The notes beneath the pieces were generated by a model. The model saw only the letters and a program-made list of their open reading frames with translations. It did not search any database and was not told the DNA's origin. DNA of 43,485 nt from an uncultured bacterium (GTDB lineage Bacteria > Verrucomicrobiota > Kiritimatiellia > PWTM01), in contig CAACVY010000016.1 in assembly GCA_900661335.1 (NCBI GenBank), positions 1 through 43,485 of the forward strand, given 5' to 3'. Each line of letters starts with the position of its first letter. Positions within the stretch are counted from its first letter, which is position 1. This document shows, one piece after another, positions 26,260 to 31,668 of this stretch. Both the position numbers and the translations under genes were made by a program.

Positions 26260-26585
26260 GGCCAGCACCACAGTCTACGGCTTCGCTGTCGCACTGCAAC
26301 TGCGTCTGCACGGAGCCACGACGGCACCCCTGGCTTTCTACCTAGGTCCATGCGCGTGTGCGGAAGACATGCGGAACGCGCAGGGGAAACACGCGCGTGC
26401 ACAGGCGAGCAGGTACGCGGCGCGCGCCCTGAAAAGCCTTTCCGCGGCAGTTGGCGCGATGGGCCGAATTCGCTAGACTCGCACCGCCATGTGCGGAACG
26501 AAGGCCATGCAAAATCCAATGGACACTGATCCCCCGTGCAAGCTCATACGTGAACGGTGGATCGCTGTCCGTGCGGAGGATCCAA
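26260..26585. other. Divergent promoter region
   Basis: This 326-nt gap separates the Cys-rich miniprotein gene (minus) from the GmhB-like gene (plus). It must hold both promoters. I could not mark a convincing -35/-10 pair, and the frames that cross it do not look like proteins. Confidence 0.35.
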
Positions 26586-27170
26586 ATGCCGAGACCCGCG
26601 GTGTTCGTGGACCGTGACGGAACGCTGAACGAAATGGTGTACGATGCCACCCACGGCATTTTTGATTCGCCGCGGCGTCCCGAACAGGTCCGCCTGCGCC
26701 CAGGCGCCGCCGAGTTCCTGCACCGACTTCAGCAGGCCGGATGGCCGGTCGTGATCATCACCAACCAGCCAGGGCTCGCGCGGGGTACTCTTACGGATGA
26801 AGATTTAAGCCACGTGCACCAGCGGCTCGCGGAGCTGCTGGTTCCTGACAGAACCCCGTGGATCGCCGTGTACGTGTGTCCCCACGACCCGGCCACTCAA
26901 CCATGTGCGTGCCGCAAACCGCTGCCGGGGCTCTTACTTCAAGCAGCCCATGAGCTGGATCTAGATCTCACGCACAGCTGGATGGTGGGCGACGGCATTG
27001 TCGACATCCAAGCTGGACGGGCCGCCGGCTGCCGTACGATCTTGGTTACGCGCTTGAAGATCGAACAAGTCGAGTGTTTTTTCTCACTGGAGAACGCCCG
27101 CCCTGACTTTGTGGTTGAATCGCTCGCGCAGGCCGCTGAGATCATCCTACGTAAGGAGAACGCAAGATGA
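26586..27170 (+). CDS. HAD-family histidinol-phosphatase / heptose-bisphosphatase-like protein (GmhB type)
   Basis: 194 residues. The HAD nucleophile motif is VFVDRDGT (Asp9, Asp11), motif II is VVIITNQPG, and motif III/IV is KPLPG...MVGDGIVDIQAG. A zinc loop CPHDP...PCACRKP is present, as in GmhB and HisB-N. GmhB removes the 7-phosphate of heptose 1,7-bisphosphate. GGAGGA lies 5 nt before the ATG at 26586; the longer frame (from 26451) was rejected. Its stop overlaps the next ATG (ATGA). With the nucleotidyltransferase two genes on, the product is probably a sugar-1-phosphate. The exact sugar is inferred. Confidence 0.82.
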   Translation: MPRPAVFVDRDGTLNEMVYDATHGIFDSPRRPEQVRLRPGAAEFLHRLQQAGWPVVIITNQPGLARGTLTDEDLSHVHQRLAELLVPDRTPWIAVYVCPHDPATQPCACRKPLPGLLLQAAHELDLDLTHSWMVGDGIVDIQAGRAAGCRTILVTRLKIEQVECFFSLENARPDFVVESLAQAAEIILRKENAR

Positions 27171-27919
27171 CTCCACCATGGCGGGCAGCGCTGGAGCAAA
27201 TCCGCAATCGGCGACAGGCTGCGGACATGGCCTGGTACGAGGTGGGATGGTTGGTCGCTCGGCGCGGAGTCCAATACCTGGCCCGCCGATTACGAGGACG
27301 TCGCGTTTTCGAACTCGACGGAGTTCGCTACCAGCATTTCGTGCACCCGTTCATCCTCGACAACGAGCGTACCGTGGAAATCCCGATCGCGCTGGCGGCA
27401 GTTGAACGCCACCGAAACGGACGGATCTTGGAAGTGGGCCACGTACTCTCGGCCTATACGACATTCCCCCACGTGATCCTCGACAAGTACGAGCGCGGTC
27501 AGGGCGTCCTTAACGTGGACGTCGTGGACTTCAAGCCCGACCACCCGTTCGATTTGATCGTCTCCATTTCGACGATCGAACACGTGGGATGGGACGAACT
27601 TGATCGCGATTCCACCAAGCCCATTCGCGCCATAGCCCAGATGAGACAATGGCTGGCCCCGGAAGGAGAATTGGTGGTGACCATGCCGCTGGGTTACAAC
27701 CCGCACGTGGACCGCGCGGTGGCCGACCGGGCATTTGACTTCGATCGGATGAGCTTTTTGATCCGAGTCAACCGGAACAATCTATGGCGGGCGGCCACGT
27801 GGGAGGAAGCGCGTCAGTGCCGCTTCGGTGAACCATTCCCCTGCGCCAACGCGATTGTGGTGGGATTTGGACGTGGGCCTCGCGTCGTGGCCAGTCAATC
27901 GAAGGAGCCGTCCACATGA
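27167..27919 (+). CDS. Class I SAM-dependent methyltransferase in the sugar-nucleotide cassette
   Basis: 250 residues. ILEVGHVLS and the acidic end of strand 2 (ILDKYE) form the SAM site, followed by VDVVDF, FDLIVSISTIEHVGWDE and VVTMPLGYNPHVD. The family is a set of unnamed methyltransferases in glycan clusters. The first 50 residues are Arg-rich and helical. Its ATG overlaps the stop of the GmhB-like gene and its stop overlaps the next ATG by 4 nt each, so the three proteins are made together. It may methylate the sugar whose synthesis the neighbours perform. The acceptor is unknown. Confidence 0.75.
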   Translation: MTPPWRAALEQIRNRRQAADMAWYEVGWLVARRGVQYLARRLRGRRVFELDGVRYQHFVHPFILDNERTVEIPIALAAVERHRNGRILEVGHVLSAYTTFPHVILDKYERGQGVLNVDVVDFKPDHPFDLIVSISTIEHVGWDELDRDSTKPIRAIAQMRQWLAPEGELVVTMPLGYNPHVDRAVADRAFDFDRMSFLIRVNRNNLWRAATWEEARQCRFGEPFPCANAIVVGFGRGPRVVASQSKEPST

Positions 27920-28638
27920 TTCGGACTGCCGTGGTCATTGCGGGGGGACGAGGTGAGCGCCTGATGCCGCTGACGGCGGACCGTCCGAAGGCCATGGTCG
28001 AAGTCGCCGGACGCCCATTGCTACACTGGGTGCTGCTGTGGCTGCGCGATCAAGGTATCCGCCGGGTGGGAATTGGCGTGGCCTACCAGGGCGAGAAAAT
28101 CGTCGAGTACATCGAGCGCGAACGACCCGCAGGGTTGGAAGTGGTGTTCAGTCACCACACGCTCGAGGGCGGCACGGCCGAGGGATTTCGGCGAGCGATC
28201 GAGCGAGCGGTCGAGGATGACGATTTTTTGGCAATGAACTGCGATGAGATCACAAACTTATCGGTCGCGCGATTCGAGGCCACACACCGGCGCCTGGGCA
28301 CGCCGGTTACCATGGCGCTCGCCCCGTTCTTCTGTCGGTTCAGCGTAGTCGAGCTCGCCTCGAATGGACTGATCACCGGTTTCCGCTACGGGCGACGCCT
28401 CCCGCAGGTACCAGTCAGCATTGGCATTTATCTGTTCAAACGGGAAATCTGTGCACTCTTGCCCGAACGAGGCTCCATCGAGGATTTGCTGTTCACACGC
28501 CTGGCGGAGGAAGGGCGTCTCGGAGGACACCCGCTGGGGGACGATGAGGCGTGGGTGTCGGTCAATGACATGAAAAACATTCGCGAAGCCGAGGAAGCTC
28601 TCCGCGCGTTCGGACGCATTCTTCCAACGACCCACTGA
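27916..28638 (+). CDS. Sugar-1-phosphate nucleotidyltransferase (HddC/RmlA-like)
   Basis: A 240-residue enzyme that would couple a nucleoside triphosphate to a sugar-1-phosphate. The signature GGRGERLMPLTADRPKAM is at residues 10-27, with a metal/base-site region FLAMNCDEI near residue 98 and VSIGIYLFKREI near 160. Compared with mannose-1-phosphate guanylyltransferases it lacks the C-terminal left-handed helix, like short HddC proteins. It is the last gene of a three-gene, fully overlapping cassette. The nucleotide used (GDP or ADP) and the sugar cannot be fixed from sequence. Confidence 0.82.
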   Translation: MIRTAVVIAGGRGERLMPLTADRPKAMVEVAGRPLLHWVLLWLRDQGIRRVGIGVAYQGEKIVEYIERERPAGLEVVFSHHTLEGGTAEGFRRAIERAVEDDDFLAMNCDEITNLSVARFEATHRRLGTPVTMALAPFFCRFSVVELASNGLITGFRYGRRLPQVPVSIGIYLFKREICALLPERGSIEDLLFTRLAEEGRLGGHPLGDDEAWVSVNDMKNIREAEEALRAFGRILPTTH

Positions 28639-28794
28639 GGATCGCCTCCGACCGAGAGCCGAGTGCGCGCGATGCCCCCCCGCTCCGACGCAGCATCCCT
28701 CGCGGCTACGTGGTTTACTTCACCGTACCGTGGGATGATGTCTCCCCGCGGCGGCTCCCCCATGTTTGCTCAAGAACGCAGAAGGATCGCAACG

Positions 28795-28812
28795 CCCTAA
28801 GACCGGTTAGGG
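28795..28812. terminator. Stem-loop at the sulfatase stop codon
   Basis: CCCTAA and TTAGGG form a perfect 6-bp stem around a 6-nt loop. One arm includes the stop codon of the sulfatase gene. No T-run follows, so it is at best a weak terminator between the convergent sugar-nucleotide and sulfatase genes. Confidence 0.3.
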
Positions 28813-31668
28813 TTCTGGGATCCACTTGTGCGGTTGAGGGACTCGCCCCAGCGGTCGCACGCCAGGCCCGGTGCCGGAAATTCCTAAATCGCGGTCCATC
28901 TCTGCGGCTAAGGCACGGAGTCGTGCGACCACCTCTGGGTGGAGGGCCGCCACGTTGTTTTGTTCACCAAGGTCCGATTCTAGATCGTACAATTCCCCAC
29001 TCTTGAGAAAGAGCTTCCAGCGGCCTTCACGGACCGCCTCTAGATTCAACCCGCGGAAGTAGTGGAACACCGCCCGCGGCGGTGGTCCATCCCGTCCGCA
29101 CAACACGGGCCAAATGTCCACTCCATCCAGCCGCCTCCAGGGCGGCAGCTTGGCCCCTGCCAAAGCCGCGAATGTGGGCAGAAAGTCCATCATCGTCGTG
29201 ATCGCACCCGTGCGGGTGCCCGCCGGGATTTTTCCAGGCCACCAGGCAATCGTGGGAACTCGAACGCCACCCTCCCAAGTCGAACCCTTGGCGCCGCGCA
29301 ACGGCGCGTTGTTGGAGCCGTGCTGAACCGCACCGCCGTTGTCGCTCGTGAAGATGACCAACGTATGCTCAGCCAGATGGAGCTCGCGCAGTAAGTCTAG
29401 AATTTGCCCAGTGGAAGCATCCACCTCCATGACCCAGTCGCCAAGAAGCCCGTGCCCCGAGCGGCCTTCGAACTCCGCCGACGGGTAGAGGGGAAAGTGA
29501 ACCGCGGAGTGTGCGAGGTACAAGAAGAACGGGCGTTGCGCATTCCGGCGGATGAACTCCATCGCGCGCTCGGTGTATCGCCGCACCAATTGGCGCTGCT
29601 CATTGGTGCCCACCCGTGCGATCACCCGCTCTCCCTCCAGCCACGGCAGAGGCGGCTGGTCCTGGCCTCGCAGTCCGTCCTCCGAGCGCTCCTTTCTTGC
29701 CCGTGATCGGGGAGAGGCTTGCGGGAGTGGTTGGCCCGGGTTGCTCTTGGACCCATCCGAGGCCGGTCCCATGTCGTTCGAGTACGGCAAGCCAAAATAC
29801 TCGTCGAAACCCTGTCGAGTCGGTAGAAACTCGGGGTGGTCTCCCAGGTGCCACTTTCCGATGCACGCGGTGGCATAGCCCGCGTCTTTAAGCACTTCTG
29901 CGATGGTCACTTCTTGGGTCGCCAACCCCACCACCGATTCCGGGAACAATACGTGGGGGATCGGGAGCACGCGCTTGGGGTAGCATCCCGTCATCAGTGC
30001 CGCGCGCGAAGGCGAACAAACCGGCGCCGCGTAGTGCGAGGTCAACAGGCGCCCTTCCTTCGCCATCCGGTCCAGATGTGGCGTGGGATGAATGCCCCCA
30101 AATGGTCCGATGTCGGCATACCCAAGGTCGTCCACATTGATGAGGACAAAGTTCGGCCTCCGCCCTTCTCTCGGCTCGGGCCGCTGTGCGGCGCGGCCAC
30201 TGGGTCGCGACGGGTCCCACACAGGGTTATTGGTCGGCCATACAGCGCCAACCTCGCGAAGCCAAGCTTGCAGGCGTTGCAAAAGGTCCCGAACTCGCTC
30301 CGGCTCGCGTTCGGCCAGGTTGACGGTTTCTTGTAGGTCCCACGAAAGGTCGTAGAGCTCCGTCGAACCATCCTCGAACCATTGGATCAACTTCCATGGG
30401 CCGAGCCGGATCGCCGCCCCAGGCGCTCCGCCCTGGTTCCCATAGTGGGGGTAATGCCAGAACAGCGGACGTTCCGCGACGCTCGCTGGGTCGGTCAACG
30501 CATGCCGCCAACTGACGCCATCCACCCCCCGCAACGATTCAGCGGGCAATCCCACGGCGTCGCACACTGTGCGCACGAGGTCCACGCTGCTGACCGGCGC
30601 CGTGACGATTTGACCTGGCCGCGTGACGCCGGGCCAGCGAACAATCAGTGGCACGCGAATGCCGCCCTCGTATAGCCAGCCCTTGCCCGCACGCAACAGG
30701 TAATTGGCCGTCGGCCAGCCCTCGCTGGTGGAGAGCCCGCCATTATCGCTGGTAAAAATCACCAGCGTGCGATCCGCTATTCCAAGTTCGTCGAGCTTGC
30801 CCAACACCAGCCCCACCGCTTCGTCCATGGCCTCGACCATGGCCGCATAAATGGCGTGCTCCTGGACCAGCCGCACATCACGCTCATGCTCGCGCCCCCA
30901 ACGGGCCGCCAATTCAAGGCGTTGCCGTTTTTCCTCGTACTTACGCTGAAGGTCCTCGCGAGCCATCAAGGGCGTGTGAACAAGGTAGAAGCAGTGGTAG
31001 GCAAAAAACGGACGATCCTTGACGCGTTCAATGAATTGCGCAGTCTCCCGGGCAAGCCGGAGCGGCAAATACTCTCCCGGCGGGCCGTCGGTCAGTCGTG
31101 GGTTATCGTAGGGCGAAAAATACTTTTTACCCCCGTAGGGCCCGCCGCGATCACAACCGCCACAGTTGTAGTCGAACCCCTGGTCTTCTGGCCACCAACC
31201 CGCGGGGCCCAGATGCCACTTGCCGGCGAACCATGTGGTGTAGCCGGCAGCTTTCAAGCGCTCGGCCAACGTGACTTCTTCTAGCGCGAGTCGATCTCGG
31301 TATGGCGCCGGCAACAGACGGGTATTGCGCTTCCATTCTTCCGGCTGAGGTGCCCCGATGTAGTCCGTGACACCAGTTCGCGGCGGCCACCGGCCTGTGA
31401 GAAGCGCAGCGCGCGTCGGGGAGCATACGGGGCAGGCCGCGTAAGCATCGGTGAACCTCGCCCCATGTGCGGCCAGCCGATCGAGGTTGGGCGTTTCGTG
31501 AAACGAACTTCCGTAGCACCCTAGGTCGCGCCACCCCAAGTCGTCCGCAACGAACACTACCACGTTCAACCGGTCTGCGCGCGACTCCGCTCCGCTGGCG
31601 AGTCCTAGGATCGTAGTGGCAAGCCTAAACGAGGCCAGCGCGTATCTTGCTCGATCCATGGTACTCAC
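28807..31668 (-). CDS. Tandem two-domain sulfatase
   Basis: A 953-residue protein with two complete sulfatase domains in line. Domain 1 (about residues 30-480) has VADDLGW, the formylglycine motif CSPTR (Cys82), GKWHLG and TSDNGG. Domain 2 (about 505-930) has NVDDLGY, CSPSR (Cys551), GKWHLGD and a second TSDNGG. Both keep metal-binding Asp residues and the C-T/S-R core, so both could be active once the Cys is matured. The linker (481-504) is Pro/Arg-rich. The start is GTG 31668, 6 nt after AAGGAGG. A weak signal peptide precedes domain 1. Sulfatases are normally single-domain, so this fusion is unusual. Confidence 0.9.
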   Translation of the reverse strand: MSTMDRARYALASFRLATTILGLASGAESRADRLNVVVFVADDLGWRDLGCYGSSFHETPNLDRLAAHGARFTDAYAACPVCSPTRAALLTGRWPPRTGVTDYIGAPQPEEWKRNTRLLPAPYRDRLALEEVTLAERLKAAGYTTWFAGKWHLGPAGWWPEDQGFDYNCGGCDRGGPYGGKKYFSPYDNPRLTDGPPGEYLPLRLARETAQFIERVKDRPFFAYHCFYLVHTPLMAREDLQRKYEEKRQRLELAARWGREHERDVRLVQEHAIYAAMVEAMDEAVGLVLGKLDELGIADRTLVIFTSDNGGLSTSEGWPTANYLLRAGKGWLYEGGIRVPLIVRWPGVTRPGQIVTAPVSSVDLVRTVCDAVGLPAESLRGVDGVSWRHALTDPASVAERPLFWHYPHYGNQGGAPGAAIRLGPWKLIQWFEDGSTELYDLSWDLQETVNLAEREPERVRDLLQRLQAWLREVGAVWPTNNPVWDPSRPSGRAAQRPEPREGRRPNFVLINVDDLGYADIGPFGGIHPTPHLDRMAKEGRLLTSHYAAPVCSPSRAALMTGCYPKRVLPIPHVLFPESVVGLATQEVTIAEVLKDAGYATACIGKWHLGDHPEFLPTRQGFDEYFGLPYSNDMGPASDGSKSNPGQPLPQASPRSRARKERSEDGLRGQDQPPLPWLEGERVIARVGTNEQRQLVRRYTERAMEFIRRNAQRPFFLYLAHSAVHFPLYPSAEFEGRSGHGLLGDWVMEVDASTGQILDLLRELHLAEHTLVIFTSDNGGAVQHGSNNAPLRGAKGSTWEGGVRVPTIAWWPGKIPAGTRTGAITTMMDFLPTFAALAGAKLPPWRRLDGVDIWPVLCGRDGPPPRAVFHYFRGLNLEAVREGRWKLFLKSGELYDLESDLGEQNNVAALHPEVVARLRALAAEMDRDLGISGTGPGVRPLGRVPQPHKWIPEP

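Follow-up and report, generated by a model that had tools for sequence, protein, structure and literature searches.

In Campylobacter, the synthesis of GDP-heptose involves HddA, GmhB, and HddC; the gene for GmhB is not part of the capsule cluster (PMC10680097). The heptose is methylated by Cj1426 (PMC3546167, PMC8437040). The enzymes listed for lincomycin are the transaldolase LmbR, the isomerase LmbN, the kinase LmbP, the phosphatase LmbK, the guanylyltransferase LmbO, the epimerase LmbM, the dehydrogenase LmbL, and the oxidoreductase LmbZ (PMC4351081, PMC12945683); the same list assigns a C-methyltransferase, LmbW, to a different portion of lincomycin (PMC12945683). The locus described here is a cassette of three genes located in a stretch of 43,485 nucleotides (the window) of contig CAACVY010000016.1, belonging to assembly GCA_900661335.1 of an uncultured bacterium of the Kiritimatiellia (Verrucomicrobiota). 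The cassette encodes, in this order, a GmhB-like phosphatase, a divergent methyltransferase, and a nucleotidyltransferase of the RmlA/HddC fold, designated NTase2. It is not self-contained: its genes form one block (A) of a probable surface-glycan gene set, which in relatives consists of three blocks. The gene set is real and conserved, a new combination of known enzyme kinds, and it probably serves an unusual cell-surface sugar, the sugars themselves being predicted. With a probability that we put slightly above one half, block A would be the meeting point of a C7/C8 sugar pathway and a methyl-branched sugar pathway, both feeding one surface glycan, with all substrates assigned by prediction.

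As in the case of Campylobacter jejuni HS:2 with its 6-O-methyltransferase Cj1426, a SIS isomerase, a GHMP kinase, a HAD-IIIA phosphatase, a nucleotidyltransferase, and a methyltransferase are present in one gene set. In contrast to HS:2, the set described here includes a transaldolase, a second nucleotidyltransferase, and a C-methyltransferase paired with a short-chain dehydrogenase/reductase (SDR); the SIS proteins of the relatives lack the GmhA motif residues, and the methyltransferase can be likened to Cj1426 by kind only. The lincosamide octose pathway (LmbR/N/P/K/O/M/L/Z) has the same series of transaldolase, isomerase, kinase, phosphatase, nucleotidyltransferase, SDR, and oxidoreductase, although the likeness is by enzyme kind and not by sequence, and the genes described here lie beside glycosyltransferase and flippase-like genes. 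This series of enzyme kinds is present in four relatives (G001, G002, G003, and G006) of the window's own genome (G000), with the phosphatase lying in block A; in the 68% complete assembly of G000 itself, neither the SIS protein nor the transaldolase of this kind was found. Pathways leading to 3-C-methyl sugars (D-mycarose 3-C-methyltransferase, TcaB9) share the same three-domain C-methyltransferase family beside a dehydratase/epimerase-like SDR, whereas the set described here has its own NTase2 subfamily and an extra class I methyltransferase, and is represented on two archaeal contigs as well. In the accessible portions of the sources, no second nucleotidyltransferase/C-methyltransferase module like the present one is mentioned for either the Campylobacter GDP-heptose or the lincosamide clusters. 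The combination of all three blocks is not named among the literature matches listed, which most subscription papers fall outside of and which are hence no proof of absence.

Blocks A, B, and C in related genomes

Thirty-eight genomes, G000 and 37 relatives, were searched with the window methyltransferase, and six of them were positive at E <= 1e-10. The complete order of phosphatase, methyltransferase, and nucleotidyltransferase, which the initial annotation had suggested seeking in other genomes, is found in G000 and in four of the 37 relatives, three of the same genus (G001, G002, and G003) and one of the same family (G006). With relatives of each protein at 48–70% amino-acid identity and the order kept in these four other genomes, the cassette genes are real. 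In the sixth genome (G010), as well as in a second copy in G006, the methyltransferase gene lies beside genes that look by eye like those of glycosyltransferases. Among 387 genomes of the phylum, a profile of NTase2 finds matches at E <= 1e-45 in five, exactly the cassette carriers, seven first-look candidates having been scored per genome listed. At E <= 1e-20, none of 72,556 plasmid records matched NTase2, and none of the 35 stretches of viral contigs that matched a pattern was confirmed. A relative of the phosphatase is carried by 21 plasmid records, and none of the three inspected shows the row of three genes. On one plasmid, that of Streptomyces sp. SAT1 (L181 3051–9651), a relative of the cassette phosphatase is accompanied by a SIS gene, galE, and a predicted APH(7'')-Ia gene, a grouping that we take to recall a hygromycin-type cluster.

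Block A consists of the cassette itself. Block B comprises genes for a Gfo/Idh protein, a SIS protein, a transaldolase, an HddA-like kinase, and an HddC-like nucleotidyltransferase, along with SDRs, a GT9 heptosyltransferase-like gene, and a flippase-like gene, and block C pairs a 3-C-methyltransferase with a dehydratase/epimerase (SDR2). In G003 (L041), the five core genes of block B run in the listed order on one strand and lead to the cassette, with the SDR, GT9, and flippase-like genes placed further upstream and the C-methyltransferase and SDR2 genes on the far side, running towards the cassette. G006 (L044) repeats this plan, with the three blocks contiguous and two or three foreign genes before the phosphatase. 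Genes for a small nucleotidyltransferase-fold protein and for an ATPase were recognized there by eye between the HddC-like gene and the phosphatase (L044 8907–10410, G006:C16). The blocks lie on separate contigs in G001 and G002 (A on L043 and L042, B on L048 and L049, C on L168 and L169), where block B sits between obgE and leuD, and the gene calls of these separate block B loci contain no phosphatase gene.

GmhA-like and HddA-like genes thus accompany the cassette in all four relatives, at the same locus in G003 and G006 and at another in G001 and G002, in agreement with the earlier assignment of the cassette to nucleotide-sugar biosynthesis; the presence of methyltransferases within the same set likewise agrees with the view that the methyltransferase is part of a nucleotide-sugar gene set. 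The absence of an isomerase and a kinase, noted at the outset, holds for the window but not for G003 and G006, in which the two genes precede the cassette within one run.

The transaldolase of G003 is over the cut-off of TIGR02134. Proteins of this kind were found in four of nine genomes searched, each a cassette carrier, with a profile built from those four, and none was found in the four cassette-free relatives. The best PDB match of the kinase profile is a 'putative sugar kinase' (4usm, 4.6e-36), followed by heptose kinases (3k85, 2.2e-32; 4n3o, 5.2e-29), and the match to NF049969 (2.8e-34) is below the cut-off. The SIS protein matches heptose enzymes in the PDB and is under the equivalog cut-off; the GT9 protein matches heptosyltransferase models, also below their cut-offs. 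At the positions occupied by motif residues E and H in the GmhA of G000, residues that we assume to be catalytic in GmhA, the four SIS proteins of block B have a gap or other residues, in an alignment that is gapped there.

The C-methyltransferase of G003 consists of a zinc domain, a methyltransferase domain, and a C-terminal domain (PF08421, PF13489, and PF08484, all over cut-off), and its profile matches D-mycarose 3-C-methyltransferase (4rv9, 2e-63) and TcaB9. Relatives above 700 bits are present in five of the nine genomes, the five carriers of block A, the profile itself containing the G003 and G006 proteins. Such a co-occurrence (5/5 versus 0/4) would have a probability of 1/126 under independence, which does not apply to genomes that are related and to profiles partly built from them. 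Two distant relatives, at L162 (G004:C216) and L166 (G000:C42), have one TGA inside the matched stretch.

The assembly of G000 is 68% complete. It includes the C-methyltransferase/SDR2 pair at C18 (L167), the C-methyltransferase copy being matched by profile only; the SIS protein and transaldolase of the kind found in block B of the relatives were not found in this assembly, and no genome-wide search was made for the HddC-like and Gfo/Idh genes. A GmhA of the usual kind is located at C119 (NF010546, 202.9 bits, below the cut-off of 276) beside a kinase gene that is ribokinase-like in look, and genes for ADP-heptose adenylyltransferase and epimerase, over their cut-offs, are located at C20. The search for gmhA and hddA elsewhere in the genome, proposed at the start, therefore produced a GmhA of the usual kind but no SIS protein of the relatives' kind, and for HddA only a distant kinase at C19 (222.8 bits with the block B profile). 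The latter was set aside as the block B kinase, since cassette-free genomes have similar proteins (G008, 199.5 bits; G005, 190.2 bits). It forms part of a second sugar cluster (L051 7569–12970, G000:C19) comprising two SDRs, the distant HddA-like kinase, a glycosyltransferase-like gene, and an HddC-like nucleotidyltransferase; similar SDRs and kinase occur in G005 and G008. The leuD contig of G000 (C52) has the order leuC-leuD-flippase-GT9-SDR-SDR, as in G001, followed by a trigger-factor-like gene (by eye), and the obgE contig (C43) continues into other genes, with block B not seen there. Profile searches of C52:1–20000 and C43:19000–38000 gave no SIS, transaldolase, or HddA match and a single weak Gfo/Idh match (43 bits) on C43. 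A contig break was set aside as the sole cause of the missing core of block B, the old obgE/leuD place being empty of it, and the core may have been either lost or left in the missing third of the genome.

Proteins of the cassette and their archaeal relatives

The phosphatase passes the broad histidinol-phosphatase/GmhB domain model (TIGR01656, 125.7 bits; cut-off 84.15) and is under the cut-offs of the GmhB-specific models NF006506 (130.6 versus 178 bits; 4.6e-38), TIGR00213 (96.6 versus 149.6), and NF050049 (76.6 versus 250). These scores do not support its membership in GmhB in the strict sense, and its activity on heptose 1,7-bisphosphate is a prediction. Residues D9, D11, T59, K111, and D136, as well as the C98-H100-C107-C109 pattern, are invariant in all five cassette phosphatases; the DxD, Thr, Lys, and Asp residues are presumably catalytic, and the CxH...CxC residues presumably form a zinc loop. 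Elsewhere in G000 (L053 1396–2967, G000:C107), one protein combines a GmhB-like HAD domain with a threonylcarbamoyl-AMP synthase (Sua5/YrdC) domain; this fusion may be conserved, since HAD matches in G001, G002, and G003 lie in open frames of similar length (562–590 residues).

The methyltransferase gives a weak match to Methyltransf_23 (23.2 bits, below the cut-off of 27), a model matched at E <= 0.001 by 32 of the 47 members of its family. No NCBIfam family is assigned to it, and a search of the single sequence against solved structures gave a sole match at E 0.55; since both were uninformative, a structure model was made. The model adopts a Rossmann-type class I fold (Z 12.9, root-mean-square deviation 2.9, 143 residues aligned, region 62–238). 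The nearest solved chains, with Z of 11–13, include NodS (12.8), CcbJ (12.3), and TylM1 (11.8), and the whole-model template modelling score of Foldseek is only 0.31–0.45 among the best 50 matches listed. The GxGxG-like motif I, which we take to be usual in class I methyltransferases, is replaced by E89-V-G91-[NH]92-V93, with position 93 occupied by V in 46 of the 47 members and by C in one. As this glycine-rich motif is replaced, we infer the binding of the cofactor from the fold of the model.

NTase2 is over the cut-off of NTP_transferase (66.5 bits; cut-off 21.2), and its model resembles the structures of GDP-mannose pyrophosphorylase, HddC, RmlA, and MurU. Its score with the HddC-specific model NF049965 is 73.4 bits against a cut-off of 300, which does not support membership in HddC in the strict sense. 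The Asp of the W-x-D-x-G motif is not conserved, S215 aligning with this Asp of 7whr; position 215 is S in six and T in one of seven sequences, and N217 is found in all seven. We assume that the Asp of this motif is the second of the usual metal-binding Asp residues and that N217 may replace it, as in GlmU.

Scanning of GTDB-based genome contigs with the methyltransferase yielded 296 confirmed relatives, of which the best 80 were kept. NTase2 exceeds 200 bits on five of these 80 loci, namely contigs of G001, G003, and G006 and two archaeal contigs, from Bathyarchaeota (L071) and Micrarchaeota (L083), which score 227 and 296 bits with a profile built from bacterial proteins only. The C-methyltransferase exceeds 60 bits on at least nine of the best 80 loci, many of the contigs being short. 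In L071, SDR2, NTase2, the C-methyltransferase, and the methyltransferase all lie between 5359 and 10630 (about 5.3 kb), and in L083 NTase2, another SDR, and the C-methyltransferase stand in a row, the methyltransferase being some 2 kb distant. The archaeal NTase2 proteins are 43–47% identical to that of the window; compared with G003, SDR2 of L071 is 50% identical and the C-methyltransferases are 57% (L071) and 56% (L083) identical. A different arrangement is seen on a Thermoplasmata contig (L073), which carries relatives of HddA, GmhA, and GmhB together with the methyltransferase and no NTase2 match, so that heptoses may be among the substrates of the methyltransferase in certain contexts.

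Two candidate pathways and the alternatives

The proposed scheme is built on genes, families, gene order, and joint presence in the same genomes, all of which are observed. In the first pathway, the phosphate of a C7 or C8 aldose would be produced by the transaldolase and the SIS protein and phosphorylated at C1 by the HddA-like kinase; the window phosphatase would then strip the terminal phosphate, and the HddC-like enzyme would attach the nucleotide. The phosphatase is placed in this route because the gene calls of block B, where it stands alone, include a kinase and a nucleotidyltransferase but lack any phosphatase. In the second pathway, NTase2 would activate another sugar-1-phosphate, SDR2 would convert the product to a 4-keto sugar, and the C-methyltransferase would then add a methyl branch. 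The window methyltransferase, which appears to travel with the genes of the second pathway, would methylate one of the products or the glycan. Glycosyltransferase and flippase-like neighbours suggest that both pathways feed one surface glycan.

Several observations speak against this scheme. Block A is whole where the set is split (G000, G001, and G002), as expected for one shared substrate. G000 has blocks A and C but, to the extent searched, not the core of block B, leaving the phosphatase without the proposed kinase unless the latter lies in the unassembled third of the genome or the C19 gene serves instead. Other GmhB-domain matches over cut-off (two each in G000, G001, G002, and G003, and one in G006) could serve the first pathway. 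Weaker relatives of the C-methyltransferase (187–197 bits) occur in G000–G004, so the family is not unique to the gene set. Just two archaeal contigs carry NTase2, on stretches of 17.7 (L071) and 14.5 kb (L083), and a phosphatase may lie farther off; L071 itself includes another HAD-like open reading frame (ORF) at 1740–2258 (by eye). Finally, the nine genomes are related, and the counts of co-occurrence are not independent.

A single route, in which the phosphatase, NTase2, and the methyltransferase would act in succession to give a methylated nucleoside diphosphate (NDP)-heptose and the HddC-like enzyme of the relatives would serve something else, is conceivable, if doubtful. The three genes stay joined when the larger set splits, and a PDB search with NTase2 as a single sequence ranks first HddC of Yersinia pseudotuberculosis (6jq8, 1.6e-15), a protein of the 6-deoxy-D-mannoheptose pathway. 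Methylated heptoses made via GDP-heptose enzymes do exist, a Campylobacter Cj1426 mutant losing the 6-O-methyl group on heptose (PMC3546167). However, the family profile of NTase2 ranks mannose-1-phosphate guanylyltransferases (7x8j, 3.1e-29) above HddC (6jq8, 3.5e-24), and in the relatives a separate HddC-like enzyme, to which NTase2 is 22% identical (G003 and G001), is found beside the kinase. Moreover, NTase2 lies with the C-methyltransferase on the two archaeal contigs, whose stretches contain no GmhB, HddA, or SIS profile match. The same evidence counts against the initial annotation of the phosphatase and the nucleotidyltransferase as two steps on one sugar; neighbouring genes for such enzymes need not encode consecutive steps.

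Within the two-pathway scheme, of which it is a sub-case with overlapping odds, a narrower and unlikely version has block B and the phosphatase producing a nucleotide-linked octose, as in lincosamide biosynthesis, and not a heptose. The enzyme kinds agree with the lincomycin list (PMC4351081, PMC12945683), and both the transaldolase, over its cut-off in G003 and not found in the four cassette-free relatives, and the lack of the E and H motif positions in the SIS proteins are consistent with such a product. On the other hand, the likeness to the Lmb proteins is by kind only and the C8 substrates are predicted, the kinase and the SIS protein match heptose enzymes in the PDB, and the transaldolase may have a housekeeping role. 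It is similarly improbable that the whole would consist of an octose-type nucleotide sugar, made by block B and the window phosphatase with a dedicated transaldolase and a GmhA-fold isomerase devoid of the GmhA motif residues, and of a transferable module of the methyltransferase and NTase2, common to Bathyarchaeota and Micrarchaeota, which would provide a methyl-branched sugar for the same glycan.

The phosphatase is very unlikely to be the GmhB of the ADP-heptose (lipopolysaccharide) route and an accidental neighbour of the other two genes: G000 does have the GmhA, adenylyltransferase, and epimerase genes mentioned above, and the Campylobacter GmhB, encoded in the ADP-heptose cluster, serves GDP-heptose too (PMC10680097), but other GmhB-domain matches over cut-off are available in G000 (C3:19266–19691 and C107:8520–8933) and the three genes follow the same order in five genomes.

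If the two-pathway scheme is correct, NTase2 would be named as a nucleotidyltransferase subfamily, along with a gene set common to bacteria and archaea, and bacteria known from metagenomes would be predicted to bear high-carbon and methyl-branched sugars on their surface.

Gene junctions and surroundings of the cassette

The initial description of three overlapping genes with two ATGA junctions is borne out by the ORFs, the overlaps, and the family matches (Table 1).

Table 1. Coordinates of the cassette genes, their junctions, and Shine-Dalgarno-like sequences in the window (pLDDT, predicted local distance difference test).
Feature	Length	Coordinates	Strand	Evidence
Shine-Dalgarno-like GGAGG, 6 bases before phosphatase start		26575..26579	+	read by eye
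GmhB-like HAD-IIIA phosphatase (probable sugar bisphosphate phosphatase)	194 aa	26586..27170	+	TIGR01656 1.3e-36, over cut-off
Shine-Dalgarno-like AAGGAG before methyltransferase		27153..27158	+	read by eye
ATGA overlap, phosphatase stop/methyltransferase start		27167..27170	+	
Divergent class I methyltransferase	250 aa	27167..27919	+	model pLDDT 95.9; best Z 12.9
Shine-Dalgarno-like AAGGAG before nucleotidyltransferase		27902..27907	+	read by eye
ATGA overlap, methyltransferase stop/nucleotidyltransferase start		27916..27919	+	
Sugar-1-phosphate nucleotidyltransferase (NTase2)	240 aa	27916..28638	+	PF00483 3.6e-18; model pLDDT 91.9

The further claim that the three proteins are made in a fixed ratio is unsupported, since four-base overlaps are nothing unusual, being found in 44 of 183 same-strand neighbour pairs (home-made gene call, 18 stretches of these genomes), and a Shine-Dalgarno-like sequence precedes each of the three genes. 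The junctions also vary, the second being a 4-base gap with no overlap in G002 and the first overlap being longer in G003, given the start chosen there. The overlaps suggest coupling, not a fixed ratio. The home-made gene calls included some false genes on the wrong strand (e.g., L044 7542–8824 and L041 5473–6414) and skipped others that are true (the GT9 gene of L049, genes of L046); the genes of the cassette and of the blocks were verified through their reading frames.

No sigma-70-like promoter is present in the region 26300–28820 (0.4 expected), and terminator-like sites there number two, against 2.0 expected, so that no transcript boundary is claimed. The cassette is neighboured on the opposite strand by a gene (28807–31659) for a protein of 950 residues that includes two sulfatase stretches in tandem.

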